In this document: in pieces, positions 2,597-16,303 of the stretch
Numbering within the stretch: position 1 is the stretch's first letter
Layout: the number at the start of each line of letters is the position of its first letter
From: a virus
Direction: 5' to 3' (one strand)
IMG/VR virus record: IMGVR_UViG_3300028392_000213
Span: 1 to 30,784 of that record
DNA length: 30,784 nucleotides
Translations under genes and position numbers: made by a program
Notes under the pieces: model-generated
The model's input: the letters and a program-made list of their open reading frames with translations, nothing else
Database searches by the model: none
What the model was told of the DNA's origin: nothing

Positions 2597-2767
2597 TCAA
2601 CCGTTTTTAAATTGCTGGGCTTTATGTTCAATGTTGGTCCATATAATTTTGATCTGTTGTTCATTCATCCGTGGACCAAATACAATTTGATCAATAATAG
2701 ATTCTATTATTGCTTTTGCATGTGATTCTGCATCATCTATTTCGTTTTTTAATAAATCTGTTTTCAT
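2597..2767 (-). CDS. Small protein translationally coupled to the GNAT-like gene
   Basis: A 56-codon frame reads MKTDLLKNEIDDAESHAKAI and onward, ending HKAQQFKNG. Its ATG shares one base with the TAA of the upstream - strand gene (TAATG at 2769-2765), a usual sign of translational coupling. It is Lys/Glu/Ile-rich and predicted helical, with no Cys, no signal peptide and no known motif that I can name. The frame fills most of the gap between the GNAT-like gene and the convergent + strand genes, which supports its being real. Its function is unknown. Confidence 0.55.
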   Translation of the reverse strand: MKTDLLKNEIDDAESHAKAIIESIIDQIVFGPRMNEQQIKIIWTNIEHKAQQFKNG

Positions 2768-3258
2768 TATAATCCCAATCTTTTGTAAGCATATGACCCA
2801 CGCACATCGTAGCCTAACTTGCGATGTATTTCCAAAAAACCCTCTTGATCACGCCGCATGGTGGTTGAACATACCACAGGCACACCACATGCTTGTGCCC
2901 AAGTCTCCCAAAGCACAATCATGCCTGTAACCAGCCGTAAACGTTGACGAACAGGCAGACTCGAGTCCACATGTGCCATTTTTGCACAAATCATCTCATC
3001 ATCAGACCACGGGGCACGTTCGCCACGGATAGCCCAGGTATAAGCGAGGATACGGTCAGTATCATGTTCTTTAGCGACTTTTAACAGTTCGGTTCGACTA
3101 TTGTAAAATTGTTGCACTGTGGCCAAGGTCAAGTTCCTGGCATAGGCCACAGGATCTGGTTGAAAGATTTGATCTATCTCTTGTTCAAAGTGTTGTTCAG
3201 CCATTCGCACCATGTGCGGCACATCTGTGCCTGCGGTTGATTCCCAAGTCCAGTTCAT
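2767..3258 (-). CDS. GNAT-like N-acetyltransferase-fold protein
   Basis: A 163-residue protein preceded by AAGGA about 8 bases before the ATG on the - strand. The N-terminus (VPHMVRMAEQHFEQEIDQIF) resembles the first helix of small phage GNAT proteins. The C-terminus, FLEIHRKLGYDVRGSYAYKRL, matches the GNAT motif-B pattern of an alpha-helix followed by RKLGY-v-G-yaykK. A strand near the middle (IVLWETWAQACGVPVVCSTT) fits the acetyl-CoA side of the fold, but the classical Q/R-x-x-G-x-G/A pyrophosphate loop is not obvious, so catalytic activity is uncertain. Phage GNAT-like proteins can modify host proteins or occur as virion parts. It lies on the opposite strand to the flanking late genes, as an accessory (moron-like) unit would. 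Confidence 0.6.
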   Translation of the reverse strand: MNWTWESTAGTDVPHMVRMAEQHFEQEIDQIFQPDPVAYARNLTLATVQQFYNSRTELLKVAKEHDTDRILAYTWAIRGERAPWSDDEMICAKMAHVDSSLPVRQRLRLVTGMIVLWETWAQACGVPVVCSTTMRRDQEGFLEIHRKLGYDVRGSYAYKRLGL

Positions 3259-3312: not shown

Positions 3313-3846
3313 ATGGGAAGACCCCGAATACCACTAACACCTGTGTATGACATATCAATCAACTGGGAATACTATCAACGTCATCAAGTGCCGGATGCCA
3401 ATCATTTGGGATGCACACACTGGGACGCAGGACAACACAAACAGGGCTATGGCATGACACATGCTGTGCGTCACGCAGACAATGCGGCCATCATGGTTAC
3501 TACGCATAGAGTAGCGGCCAGACTTAAATATCAACGAGCAATCTCCAGCCGGGAAATGGTGTTGCACTCCTGCTCCAACATGGCCTGTATGAATCCTGAT
3601 CACCTGTTTATTGGCGACAGATATGACATGCAGACCATTATGTTTCGGAACAAGCGACATCGCCATGGTGTGCCACCACGCAAGCCCACAGTGGAGGATA
3701 TTGTGGCCACATATGCCACCGAGGAATTGGAACGCATAGTTCACATGAGATTTACCGAAGTTGCCCGGCACCTGGATATCACAGTGAACCGAGCCAAGTA
3801 TATCAAAACAGCCAGTCACAGAGAACTGGTCAAAAGACAGCCATAA
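3313..3846 (+). CDS. HNH homing-type endonuclease
   Basis: The ATG at 3313 is chosen because AAGGAGA (3300-3306) sits 6 bases upstream; an earlier in-frame ATG at 3274 has no ribosome binding site. The 177-residue product has an HNH core: H65-R66 (TTHRVAARL), then LHSC-SNMACMNPDHL with H85, N94 and H97 as the HNH residues and C34, C87 and C92 as possible zinc ligands. This is the HNH_3 arrangement common in phage free-standing endonucleases. A basic C-terminal part (about residues 112-177) reads like a DNA-recognition helix-turn-helix: FTEVARHLDITVNRAKYIK. Such enzymes nick or cut DNA and often promote spread of their own locus. It is divergent from the GNAT-like gene and ends at a strong terminator. 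Confidence 0.85.
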   Translation: MGRPRIPLTPVYDISINWEYYQRHQVPDANHLGCTHWDAGQHKQGYGMTHAVRHADNAAIMVTTHRVAARLKYQRAISSREMVLHSCSNMACMNPDHLFIGDRYDMQTIMFRNKRHRHGVPPRKPTVEDIVATYATEELERIVHMRFTEVARHLDITVNRAKYIKTASHRELVKRQP

Positions 3847-3872
3847 AAAAGCCCCGACCCGGGGGCTTTTTT
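3845..3872. terminator. Bidirectional rho-independent terminator
   Basis: GCCCC (3851-3855) pairs with GGGGC (3862-3866), flanked by A-run 3845-3850 and T-run 3867-3872. Because an A-run precedes and a T-run follows, it can stop the HNH transcript on the + strand and a leftward transcript on the - strand, including the ncRNA candidate at 3847-4026. Confidence 0.85.
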
Positions 3873-4026
3873 ACGATCAAGGATGACAGCAGTGTGGGAC
3901 TCAATAACAGGAATGATGTAAACAATACACCAAGTTTTATAGGAGCCCCCAAAATGTCATTTCCGTGGAGCGGTCTGTGAGTCTCAGACTGCGTTTAATC
4001 ATATCTCTATGATCCACACTGCTGTC
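3847..4026 (-). ncRNA. Candidate structured small RNA with four-way junction
   Basis: A perfect 13-bp inverted repeat, GACAGCAGTGTGG (3885-3897) and its complement (4014-4026), closes about 142 bases. Inside are three arms. The first is a bulged 7-bp stem, GGAATGA 3910-3916 with TCA 3957-3959 plus TTCC 3961-3964. The second is an 8-bp stem, 3970-3977 with 3985-3992. The third is a 6-bp stem, ATCATA 3998-4003 with TATGAT 4008-4013, abutting the closing stem directly. Strand call: on the - strand CATAAATA (4039-4032) would place +1 at G4026, the first base of the closing stem, and the transcript would end at the terminator at 3845-3872, giving about 180 nt. Against this, the 8-bp stem has one G-T pair that is a wobble only in + strand RNA. 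An 8-codon + strand frame (3954-3980, AGGAG upstream) lies inside. The family was not recognised. Confidence 0.55.
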
Positions 4027-4031
4027 TATAA

Positions 4032-4039
4032 TATTTATG
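4032..4039 (-). promoter_or_regulatory. CATAAATA promoter candidate for the ncRNA
   Basis: Read on the - strand the bases are CATAAATA-TTATA-G, with the G at 4026. The spacing from the last A to the first base of the closing stem is the same as in T4 late promoters. TATTAT inside the same stretch could alternatively act as a sigma70 -10, but no good -35 lies 17 bases upstream. The identical octamer occurs at 7377-7384 on the + strand. Confidence 0.4.
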
Positions 4040-4049
4040 CAAGTGAAAA

Positions 4050-4075
4050 AAATCCCCACATTTCTGCAGGGATTT
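4050..4075 (+). other. 7-bp hairpin in a gene-free stretch
   Basis: AAATCCC (4050-4056) pairs with GGGATTT (4069-4075) around a 12-base loop. A weaker GTGCT/AGCAC pair lies at 4081-4108. Apart from these and the promoter candidates just before 4194, I see no gene in 4040-4193. Confidence 0.4.
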
Positions 4076-4154: not shown

Positions 4155-4169
4155 TATACTTGCTAAATA
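4155..4169 (+). promoter_or_regulatory. Promoter region upstream of the 4194 gene
   Basis: TATACT at 4155-4160 resembles a sigma70 -10, with a poor -35 (TTAGGA, 4132-4137) 17 bases away. CTAAATA at 4163-4169 overlaps this leader and would place a late-type start at 4175, directly at the CAGGAAG ribosome-binding stretch. Which one is used cannot be told from sequence. Confidence 0.4.
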
Positions 4170-4193: not shown

Positions 4194-4550
4194 ATGATAT
4201 CCAATTTATCAGCAGAAAAAAACTATTCACGTGATCAGCAGGAAGTTCGTCAAAACTGGCGTATTTCAGACTGGGCTCGCAGGCATGGTTTATCATTGTC
4301 CAAAATACAACATCATCCCAACATCAGCAATGTGGCACTGCTACTGGAATTTGATGAGCACAGCATTTGGTTCTCCCCCAAGGATACTGAGATCTGGACT
4401 CATTGCTGGCAGTGGTGCTACCGATATGAACACGAACTTTCACTATATCACAGACGCAAATTATTATCAATCATAGACGGCATAGAATTCAGGCAACAAA
4501 GATTACGACACATTCAGGCAAGACAACAAAAAAAACTGGCCGCAGTATAA
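4194..4550 (+). CDS. Hypothetical protein, Trp/His/Arg-rich
   Basis: A 118-residue protein. The N-terminal part reads NWRISDWARRHGLSLSKIQHHP, which could form a helix-turn-helix (DWARRHGLSLSKIQ), so DNA binding is conceivable. The middle (IWFSPKDTEIWTHCWQWCYRYEHEL) is Trp-rich, and the C-terminal helix (RQQRLRHIQARQQKKLAAV) is strongly basic. The ribosome binding site is weak (AGGAAG about 13 bases before the ATG). It is a single gene between the two structured-RNA stretches and is not coupled to a neighbour. I do not recognise the family. Confidence 0.6.
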   Translation: MISNLSAEKNYSRDQQEVRQNWRISDWARRHGLSLSKIQHHPNISNVALLLEFDEHSIWFSPKDTEIWTHCWQWCYRYEHELSLYHRRKLLSIIDGIEFRQQRLRHIQARQQKKLAAV

Positions 4551-4560
4551 ACGAGTTGGA

Positions 4561-4930
4561 AAATGGGAGTAATAATGAGGCTAAAGGCTCCCGCCAGCCA
4601 AGTTCAACTTACGGACTTGGAACCACTGGAGTGCCGTAGAGTCCCCAGCAATGGGCCAGAGTATGCTATAGTCAAAGATCTCTGGGGTAACGCTCTGTAA
4701 GTCAATCCTTGCCCGTGAGGGACGACAGGTCAAAGTATTTTTAGAGAGAATATTTTGACCTGGCGTGAACAAGAGGTTGTAGGAAAGGTTCGATGTAGGC
4801 ATGTTTTTTTTGAACACCCTACATTTAGCCGTCCTATGGCTTCTTGGTCATGAGTTATAAACTTTATTTCTGAAATAGGCAACATTGAATGTCGCAAGAC
4901 ATTCAATAGATCTCGCAAGAGATCTTGAAA
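4561..4930 (+). ncRNA. Candidate structured RNA / long structured 5' leader rich in GNRA hairpins
   Basis: About 400 bases (4551-4958) hold no gene but a chain of hairpins. (1) GGGAGT 4565-4570 with GCTCCC 4587-4592. (2) CCAAGT 4598-4603 with ACTTGG 4615-4620. (3) CCCA-GCAA-TGGG 4644-4655. (4) CCAGAG 4656-4661 with CTCTGG 4680-4685, directly abutting (3). (5) CCC-GTGA-GGG 4712-4721. (6) A 14-bp stem 4726-4739 with 4749-4762, containing one G-T pair and a 9-base loop. (7) ATGTAGG 4793-4799 with CCTACAT 4818-4824. (8, 9) Two abutting GCAA hairpins at 4884-4907 and 4908-4925. Four of these loops are GNRA tetraloops. It ends about 30 bases before the ribosome binding site of the 4959 gene, so it may be an independent RNA or a regulatory leader. 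No Rfam family was recognised by eye. Confidence 0.55.
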
Positions 4931-6125: not shown

Positions 6126-6154
6126 TTGACCGCTAATTCACATGATGCTATACT
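6126..6154 (+). promoter_or_regulatory. Sigma70 promoter for the 6190 gene
   Basis: TTGACC (6126-6131), a 17-base spacer, and TATACT (6149-6154) make five of six matches to each consensus hexamer. The leader after it (ATAGACTTACAAACAAACGC, then AAGGAGC) is nearly identical to that of the 6420 promoter. Confidence 0.8.
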
Positions 6155-6189
6155 ATAGACTTACAAACAAACGCTTCAAGGAGCATGAG

Positions 6190-6419: not shown

Positions 6420-6448
6420 TTGACCCCAAAATCACATTTTGTTATACT
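6420..6448 (+). promoter_or_regulatory. Sigma70 promoter for the small acidic protein cluster
   Basis: TTGACC (6420-6425), 17 bases, TATACT (6443-6448). It drives the chain of four small coupled genes from 6481 to 7301, which ends at the terminator at 7345-7369. Confidence 0.8.
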
Positions 6449-6480
6449 ATAGACTTACTAACAAACGCAAGGAGCGTGAG

Positions 6481-12404: not shown

Positions 12405-12411
12405 CTAAATA
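12405..12411 (+). promoter_or_regulatory. CTAAATA late-type promoter candidate for portal operon
   Basis: It sits in the only gap between the terminase and portal genes. The predicted start at 12417 is 4 bases before GAGGAAA (12421-12427), the portal ribosome binding site. Confidence 0.5.
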
Positions 12412-15160: not shown

Positions 15161-16303
15161 ATGATGACAACGATCACGCCTAATGCCCCCGCAGGCACGG
15201 CCAATGACGCACCAGCAGTCAGCGATGAATCAATAGCAAGTAAAATGGCCGCCATGCGTAACCAGGTTATTGCTACCAGACCAACTGCACCAGGTCCTGT
15301 GGAGAGTGAGGCAGAAGCCACAAGCCCTGTAACCCCAGAAGGGTTAGAAGATGAAACCAATTTGGATTCTGACATGCCCATCGGCGATGCAGAGGAAGTC
15401 ACCCAGCAAGATGCTGTAAGTGAACCAGACGCAGACAGTAGTAGTGAAGAACTAATAGACTTTATTGAATTTGCAGAGACTAATCCCAATGCCAAGTTCA
15501 AGTTTACCAGGAATGGTCGAGAAGTTGTTATCGACGCTAAGAAAGCCGCAAGCATATTGGGTCAAGGAGGTGCCATACATGAAGAAGCACGCCAGTTAAA
15601 AGTAGAACGCAGTGAGTTTGACGAATTTGTCAAGGAACAGCGGGCTCGCCAGGAAGGTTTAACATTGGCCATGGAGTTTACGGTTCAACCGCAACTGCAA
15701 AAGGCTTATGATGAGATAGTGAAGACGCAAGGGTATCAAACTGTTTTCCAACAACAGATGAACCAAACACAGGATCCAGCCCAACAGGCTCGTATCCAGG
15801 CCAGTATGCAACAGAATGAGCAATACATTCAGCAACAGCAGGCTGTGATTGGTCAATTGAAACCCGCAGTGGACGAATTTCGAACCATAAGACGACAACA
15901 GGTGCAGGAAGTTCTTGAAAATACTCGCAAGGGATTTACTGACAAGGAGTTGAGAAACGAATTTGTCTATAATGAATTGCGTGGCAAGATCGAAAAACTG
16001 TGGACCGGGGCCAAGACAGAACTCATACCAGGTGTTCCCAACATTGACTTGATAGCGTCAGATGAAACCCTGTTGGGACTTGTGAGAGACGGATTGAAAT
16101 ATCGATCCAAACCTCAAACACGTCAAGCAGGATCCAGCATCGCACAATTGACACAGCGTAAAGGCACTGTTCAGAATCGAGGTTCTGATTCAGGCATTGA
16201 AAAACTTCGTGAGCAAGCCAAGGCCGGTGATAAAAAAGCCGGAGACAACCTCTTGATGCAGAGACTGAGTCAAATCAGATCCACAGCAAGAGGTGGTAGA
16301 TAA
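15161..16303 (+). CDS. Scaffolding protein
   Basis: A 380-residue protein immediately upstream of the major capsid gene. Composition is as in scaffolds: an N-terminal acidic disordered region (about residues 45-95), a central Gln-rich coiled coil (about 160-255, with QQQMNQTQDPAQQARIQASM), and a basic C-terminus (YRSKPQTRQAG, QIRSTARGGR) that would bind the capsid protein. Scaffolds guide procapsid assembly and then leave. Two adjacent ATGs (15161 and 15164) follow AGGA; the second has the better spacing (8 bases), so the protein may be one residue shorter. Confidence 0.8.
   Translation: MMTTITPNAPAGTANDAPAVSDESIASKMAAMRNQVIATRPTAPGPVESEAEATSPVTPEGLEDETNLDSDMPIGDAEEVTQQDAVSEPDADSSSEELIDFIEFAETNPNAKFKFTRNGREVVIDAKKAASILGQGGAIHEEARQLKVERSEFDEFVKEQRARQEGLTLAMEFTVQPQLQKAYDEIVKTQGYQTVFQQQMNQTQDPAQQARIQASMQQNEQYIQQQQAVIGQLKPAVDEFRTIRRQQVQEVLENTRKGFTDKELRNEFVYNELRGKIEKLWTGAKTELIPGVPNIDLIASDETLLGLVRDGLKYRSKPQTRQAGSSIAQLTQRKGTVQNRGSDSGIEKLREQAKAGDKKAGDNLLMQRLSQIRSTARGGR

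Follow-up and report, generated by a model that had tools for sequence, protein, structure and literature searches.

Genomic setting of the RNA locus

The window, meaning the whole record of 30,784 bases from a bacterial virus of which environmental DNA is the sole source, contains genes for a terminase, a portal and a major head protein. The RNA described here occupies its minus strand between gene E, coding for an HNH homing-type endonuclease, and gene F (Table 1). Wherever gene D was found, the RNA, if present, was located 5' of it and on the same strand. Among loci fetched with the terminase only, 19 had a match to D, with the RNA present in 11 and absent from 8; over all fetched loci it was present in 30 of the 39 with D, a figure inflated by pattern fetching. 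On a D protein tree (23 rows, mostly weak branches, loci with a cut-off D left out) the label for RNA presence requires four changes, a tree that shows neither a single origin nor several origins of the RNA.

Small genes land in the interval that separates the RNA from D (3313-3846 in the window, and in the relatives' loci): it contains either a convergent HNH endonuclease gene or a co-directional ORF, the latter of two unrelated kinds. Beside D a Ferritin-like/DNA-binding protein gene is present at 2024-2503 (+; PHROG 3636, Pfam Ferritin). A second strongly folding non-coding stretch was observed at 4551-4860 (+; -118.9 kcal/mol, z -6.83), with two long hairpins, and was not seen in relatives by blastn. 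In several relatives the upstream flank of the RNA gene carries, within some 600 bases, a recurring short run of inverted repeats around AGATCTCGCAAGAGATCT (Table 1).

Table 1. Positions of the RNA, its parts and the surrounding features (window coordinates unless a relative is named).
Feature	Position	Strand	Description
Gene D	2767-3258	-	Closest conserved gene on the same strand as the RNA; matches no known family
Gene E, HNH homing-type endonuclease	3313-3846	+	PHROG 1872 and 6254; convergent with the RNA
Intrinsic terminator, bidirectional	3841-3876	-	Common to the RNA and the convergent HNH gene
RNA core, P1 to P1	3885-4026	-	142 nt; match of model R1
P1 3' strand	3885-3897	-	Pairs with 4014-4026
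Pseudoknot 3' strand	3898-3903	-	UGAGUC; immediately 5' of the P1 3' strand
P5 hairpin	3914-3932	-	Covariation
J4/5	3933-3944	-	UCCUAUAAAACU; UCCUUUCAAGUU in most relatives
P4	3945-3971	-	Shortened here; outer GCUCC/GGGGC, inner AAAU/AUUU
P3 hairpin	3973-3989	-	5 bp, 7-nt loop
Pseudoknot 5' strand	3978-3983	-	GACUCA, within the P3 loop; covariation
J2/3	3990-3997	-	UAAACGCA; most conserved unpaired strand, identical in 22/22 rows
P2 hairpin	3998-4013	-	Short here, GAGA loop; longer in most relatives, hexaloop AAUCGC
P1 5' strand	4014-4026	-	13 bp with 3885-3897, perfect
Late-type promoter motif	4032-4039	-	CATAAATA; predicted +1 at 4026, first base of P1
Second terminator	4050-4075	-	Just upstream of the RNA promoter
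Gene F	4194-4550	+	Divergent from the RNA; own TAAATA at 4164
Inverted-repeat run, window	4881-4925		
Inverted-repeat run, L068	3150-3193		
Inverted-repeat run, L104	1685-1758		
Inverted-repeat run, L098	1249-1290		
Inverted-repeat run, L120	2700-2749		

Members of the RNA family

Relatives were found neither with gene F nor with the HNH gene as query. The terminase query gave 80 loci and gene D two more, and blastn recognised the RNA in two of the terminase loci, L039 and L040. An unpaired motif common to the first RNA loci, TAAACGCAG, led to further members, and a pattern scan of viral contigs yielded 56 stretches, 23 of them with a true model match; in L092 the opposite strand was also listed, with a match of 13.1 bits. 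Removal of rows with an identical core, and also of L040 (a copy of L039) and L065 (a copy of L061), left 21 members, and L059, added by the model, brought the set to 22 distinct members of 134-193 nt.

Eighteen phage sequences went into the covariance model R1; the window, L039, L061 and L059 were left out of it. Applied to 83 sources, R1 returned 13 matches with E no higher than 1, the weakest with an E value of 4.5e-12. The window was matched exactly over the core from P1 to P1 (58.8 bits, E 1.5e-12), and L059, L061, L065, L039 and L040 were also matched. The RNA was present in 12 of the 30 phage records searched.

Further searches were made in both viral and bacterial sequences. Another model, based on the full set of 22, was run over 84 sources and added no member. 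L041, which has D and no RNA, reached at best 7 bits in a scan with filters off. Pattern searching based on P3 gave six viral stretches, every one from contigs already known to carry the RNA, while a P2-loop pattern gave at least 120 stretches in viral contigs; the model, run on 100 loci (99 of the new ones and L274), matched L274 only, and for loci L378-L388 the check was by motif alone. The annotated phage collection returned short chance or terminator pieces only, an exact-pattern search with the RNA's 5' end returned no match, and the RNA was absent from the full phage record MW202484. At least 118 stretches with the core pattern were present in bacterial genomes, and a motif check of 118 of them found the conserved context in none; on the first 80 of these, together with part of MW202484, the model reached at best 13.1 bits and identified no member. 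Two whole bacterial genomes gave no match, which shows little. The RNA family was found only in one podovirus-like clade.

Fold and covariation

The initial annotation had described a perfect 13-bp closing stem around three further helices in a four-way junction. The stem is present as P1 and does enclose further helices; the layout goes beyond a four-way junction, with P1 closing P2 to P5 and a pseudoknot formed by the P3 loop. The 142 nt of the minus strand fold at -53.3 kcal/mol (z -5.18, a value as good in 0 of 200 shuffles) and those of the plus strand at -48.1 kcal/mol (z -4.26, likewise reached by 0 of 200 shuffles). The minimum-energy fold employs the pseudoknot strand differently from the comparative structure.

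Compensatory changes in homologues had been named beforehand as a check, and in the 22-row model alignment both sides changed at 43 of the 46 pairs of the structure. Over these pairs and rows, 92.3% of the cells were paired compared to 67.8% after shuffling, and the covariation score was 0.631 compared to 0.217 after shuffling and 0.071-0.114 with the strands slid, values that lean towards the model in the nested part of the alignment, which was fitted to it. In P1, 96.2% of the cells were paired, with both-side changes at 10 of 11 modelled pairs; in P3, 100%, with such changes at four of five pairs; and in P5, 80.8%, with such changes at all four modelled pairs. P2 was paired in 91.2% of the cells, and P4, family-wide, in 76.1% (outer) and 95.6% (inner); the inner P4 pairing of the window itself is tentative. 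In the window all 36 countable pairs form, 34 of them Watson-Crick and two G-U.

The pseudoknot joins six of the seven P3-loop bases with the 6 nt preceding the 3' strand of P1. It is absent from the model, and the alignment was never fitted to it. Both sides changed at all six pairs, 98.5% of the cells were paired, and the score was 0.672 compared to 0.308 after shuffling and at most 0.126 with the strands slid. The P3 loop occurs in 10 distinct sequences with full complementarity in 21 of 22 rows; the exception, L112, is apparently one column out of register. When loops and strands were combined across rows with differing loops, full pairing was obtained in 94 of 404 combinations. Taken as a comparison of sequences, these data indicate a fold that is preserved among related viruses while its letters change.

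The members fall into two subtypes. In 18 of them P2 is long and carries the hexaloop AAUCGC (AAUCGA in L107 and L111), and GGUAAAGUG is found in the P4 loop; in the window, L039, L059 and L061 P2 is short, and neither AAUCGC nor GGUAAAGUG is present. This split is partly search-made, as 12 of the 18 long-P2 members were fetched by a pattern requiring GGUAAAGUG; L008, L018, L035, L060, L068 and L085 were reached first via the terminase or D and have both loop motifs. Similarly, UAAACGCA was used to fetch many rows, and the loci found by R1, L059 included, carry it too. A possible kissing contact between the P4 and P5 loops (GGUAA/UUGCC) was noted by eye; GGUAA is invariant where present, leaving no covariation to test.

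Functional strand

Counted over all pairs and 22 rows, G-U occupied 60 cells and A-C 20, and among the pair columns G-U occurred in 25 of 46 and A-C in nine of 46. The minus strand is favoured because G-U outnumbers A-C in cells as well as in columns. A single G-T wobble had earlier been taken as an argument for the plus strand; this was overturned once all 22 members were counted. The strand, previously left open, is now decided, and from the promoter motif in 22 of 22 members, the balance of G-U and A-C and the R1 match we regard it as settled that the minus strand is the functional one.

Promoter

The initial annotation had placed the first transcribed base on the first base of the closing stem by means of CATAAATA, which is present (Table 1); TAAATA precedes P1 in 22 of 22 members. 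According to excerpts of PMC1524935, late promoters read TATAAATA, spanning -13 to -6, in T4 and CTAAATA, starting from -12, in phage Aeh1; with this spacing the start is predicted at 4026. The motif is like T4-type late promoters in sequence and in spacing to +1 as given in the same excerpts (PMC1524935), and differs in that it sits in a podovirus-like clade. No gp55-like sigma factor was found in 20 ORFs (19 from the fragmentary contigs of two relatives and one from the window).

In the window TAAATA occurs in 13 copies compared to 7.4 expected by shuffling. Besides the RNA's copy, five copies (3290, 4164, 7759, 12406 and 15109) are located 23-52 nt upstream of gene starts, gene E having its TAAATA 23 nt 5' of the ATG. 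Up to 70 nt upstream of the portal start, the motif was present in 67 of 67 loci, mostly at 26-33 nt (12406-12411 in the window); it was likewise present upstream of the gene at 15161 in 28 of 33 relatives and upstream of the head protein gene in nine of 22; the background was 319 of 21,622 windows of 70 nt. The script counted it upstream of the terminase in 1 of 80 loci, which is an edge artefact. In relatives lacking the RNA, D has TAAATA just upstream, and a similar motif was seen by eye in the window. By motif, the promoter class is common to the RNA and the virion genes, and late expression of the RNA is inferred from this shared class.

Sigma-70-like promoters instead serve the genes at about 6190 and 6480. 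Positions 6126-6174 and 6420-6468 repeat TTGACC, 17 nt, TATACT, followed by AAGGAGC and ATG, as is the case in relatives too; this repeated promoter with leader and ribosome site is probably an early promoter class.

Terminators and genes following the RNA

The bidirectional terminator proposed for the far end of the RNA was located (Table 1), and the predicted transcript extends from 4026 to about 3845 (-), about 180 bases. The second terminator, at 4050-4075, would insulate the RNA promoter, and a similar one was seen by eye before the RNA of L039. A terminator follows P1 at a distance of 8-24 nt in 12 of 22 members, window included. L039 has neither a terminator nor a co-directional ORF after P1. 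In the window, L106 and L122 the script also listed an open frame that overlaps the terminator or lies past it, and these frames were taken for chance.

The covariation, the promoter in 22 of 22 members and the terminator support the earlier proposal of a small structured RNA candidate with its own promoter and terminator. As the followers vary while the RNA stays, the arrangement argues for a stand-alone, trans-acting RNA.

Comparison with known RNAs

Rfam 15, the scan of which had been suggested in the initial annotation, gave no match to any family at the gathering score, neither in the window nor in the loci of eight relatives. Permissive Rfam scans of the window's element and of two relatives gave chance-level matches only, and 6S RNA was not among the permissive matches at E up to 10. 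ARAGORN detected no tRNA or tmRNA in the window.

The likeness to 6S RNA that had been pointed out earlier holds for the size, the long closing stem and the single transcription unit, as does the remark that the layout differs; it is not borne out by an Rfam match or by the fold, as 6S RNA is a rod with a central bubble whereas a multi-helix junction with a pseudoknot is found here. 6S RNA binds sigma-70 RNA polymerase and templates a product RNA. The pRNA of phi29, required by the packaging ATPase of phi29-type phages, is also a phage RNA of similar size with paired ends and helices at a junction; in contrast, the RNA described here has an intramolecular pseudoknot beside the closing stem, a late-type promoter and no Rfam match. 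GOLLD and ROOL are likewise phage-borne (phage and prophage) and highly structured, but much larger (many GOLLD exceed 800 nt, compared to 134-193 nt here) and often near tRNA islands. In the excerpted text of PMC12286853, the GOLLD level increases during lysis. A literature search covering mostly titles and abstract openings, plus portions of PMC1524935, PMC12286853 and PMC12197685, contained no description of this RNA family. As judged by sequence comparison, the RNA family is new, while its kind, the structured RNAs carried by phages, is a known one.

Possible function of the RNA

We consider it probable that the element is a stand-alone minus-strand RNA with a T4-late-type promoter and an intrinsic terminator, acting in trans. 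Transcription would start from this promoter and end at the terminator, and the pseudoknotted core would, judging from its anatomy, present invariant single strands (UAAACGCA, J4/5 and the loops of P2 and P4) to a partner. J4/5, a pyrimidine-rich strand with UCCUUU, is complementary to a Shine-Dalgarno-like sequence; it could pair with phage mRNAs at their Shine-Dalgarno regions or 5' ends, and late-phase translation of these mRNAs would then be blocked by the pairing.

In pairing with start regions, J4/5 did better than shuffled versions of itself in 14 of the 16 loci tested (from the 22 members), with z below -2.5 in three. In pairing with the adjacent divergent region, its rank was at most 0.07 in eight of 22 loci, 0.09 in one more and above 0.1 in 13. 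Windows as good as this region numbered 0 of 440 in L008, 0 of 282 in L106 and 5 of 489 in L059; for the J4/5 of the window itself, 681 of 805 were equal or better. In L094 and L113 a divergent gene, some 320 nt upstream of the RNA, has an 11-nt perfect complement of J4/5 at its ribosome site. A swap test for the adjacent region gave 29 and then 28 of 2000, and proves nothing because two control regions on the other strand match it (20 of 2000 each); four other single-stranded segments gave no signal. Against an antisense role of J4/5, invariant pseudoknotted folds are commoner in protein- or ligand-binding RNAs than in antisense RNAs. Such pairing of J4/5 with phage mRNAs is a lead only, and a doubtful one; it is our leading specific guess, with a protein partner close behind.

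It is quite possible, though short of probable, that the family is a new compact pseudoknotted RNA class made with the virion genes and working as a folded body (an RNA-protein particle, a decoy, or in anti-defence or assembly), not as an antisense RNA. Rather unlikely, in our estimate, is that the RNA acts via a protein or the ribosome, as a decoy, an inhibitor, an anti-defence or a virion-assembly RNA, with no mRNA pairing at all. Such a partner would fit the invariance of UAAACGCA and the near invariance of several loops, the maintenance of the pseudoknot across 10 loop sequences and the use of the virion genes' promoter class. The P2 loop motif and GGUAAAGUG are jointly present in 18 of 22 members and jointly absent from four, like one binding site, but this split is partly due to fetching by GGUAAAGUG; moreover, no gene is tied to the RNA, as seen from the terminase-fetched D loci that lack it.

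An improbable reading is that the RNA acts in cis as the leader of the next gene, an attenuator or a riboswitch, with P1 and the U-run as a ligand-controlled terminator. Nine of 22 members run, 9-25 nt past P1 and without a separate terminator, into an ORF of the same direction (62-92 aa), eight of these nine with a run of at least four T within 24 nt; running into an ORF is leader-like and speaks against a stand-alone RNA. The ORFs after P1, however, are of two unrelated kinds, a dedicated terminator is present in 12 of 22 members, the HNH gene beyond, where present, is convergent, and D has a TAAATA of its own in relatives lacking the RNA.

That the plus strand is functional, as an RNA or through two tiny peptides that have Shine-Dalgarno sites, is very improbable. 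The 8-codon plus-strand frame with AGGAG reported earlier exists in the window and is not conserved: AGGA, GGAG or AAGG is found 4-12 nt before an ATG on the plus strand in 16 of 22 members, compared to 1 of 22 on the minus strand, yet the frames differ in register and in length, from two codons to open-ended, and are missing from six of 22. The pattern arises because UCCU and GCCAU are conserved unpaired on the minus strand, the AGGAG being the complement of J4/5, and both the G-U excess and the direction of the promoter point to the minus strand. A cruciform-forming DNA element (an origin, a recombination or an endonuclease site) is scarcely credible, as the inverted repeats and the adjoining homing-type endonuclease genes that would suit it stand against the greater tolerance of G-U than of A-C, the flanking promoter motif and terminators, and a loop-to-strand pseudoknot characteristic of RNA.

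Significance

GOLLD, ROOL and pRNA are either very large or limited to one phage group and, to our knowledge, few phage-borne structured RNAs have statistical support for nearly every helix. The RNA described here is small, has a defined fold and strand and a predicted start and end, and turns up in many phage contigs from metagenomes, which makes it open to synthesis, probing and structure determination. On the folded-body reading, the loops of P2 and P4 would form a single binding module that can be removed, and the RNA gene would be under a T4-late-type promoter in a podovirus-like clade. The RNA locus reveals, by its predicted promoter, a T4-late-type promoter class among podovirus-like phages.
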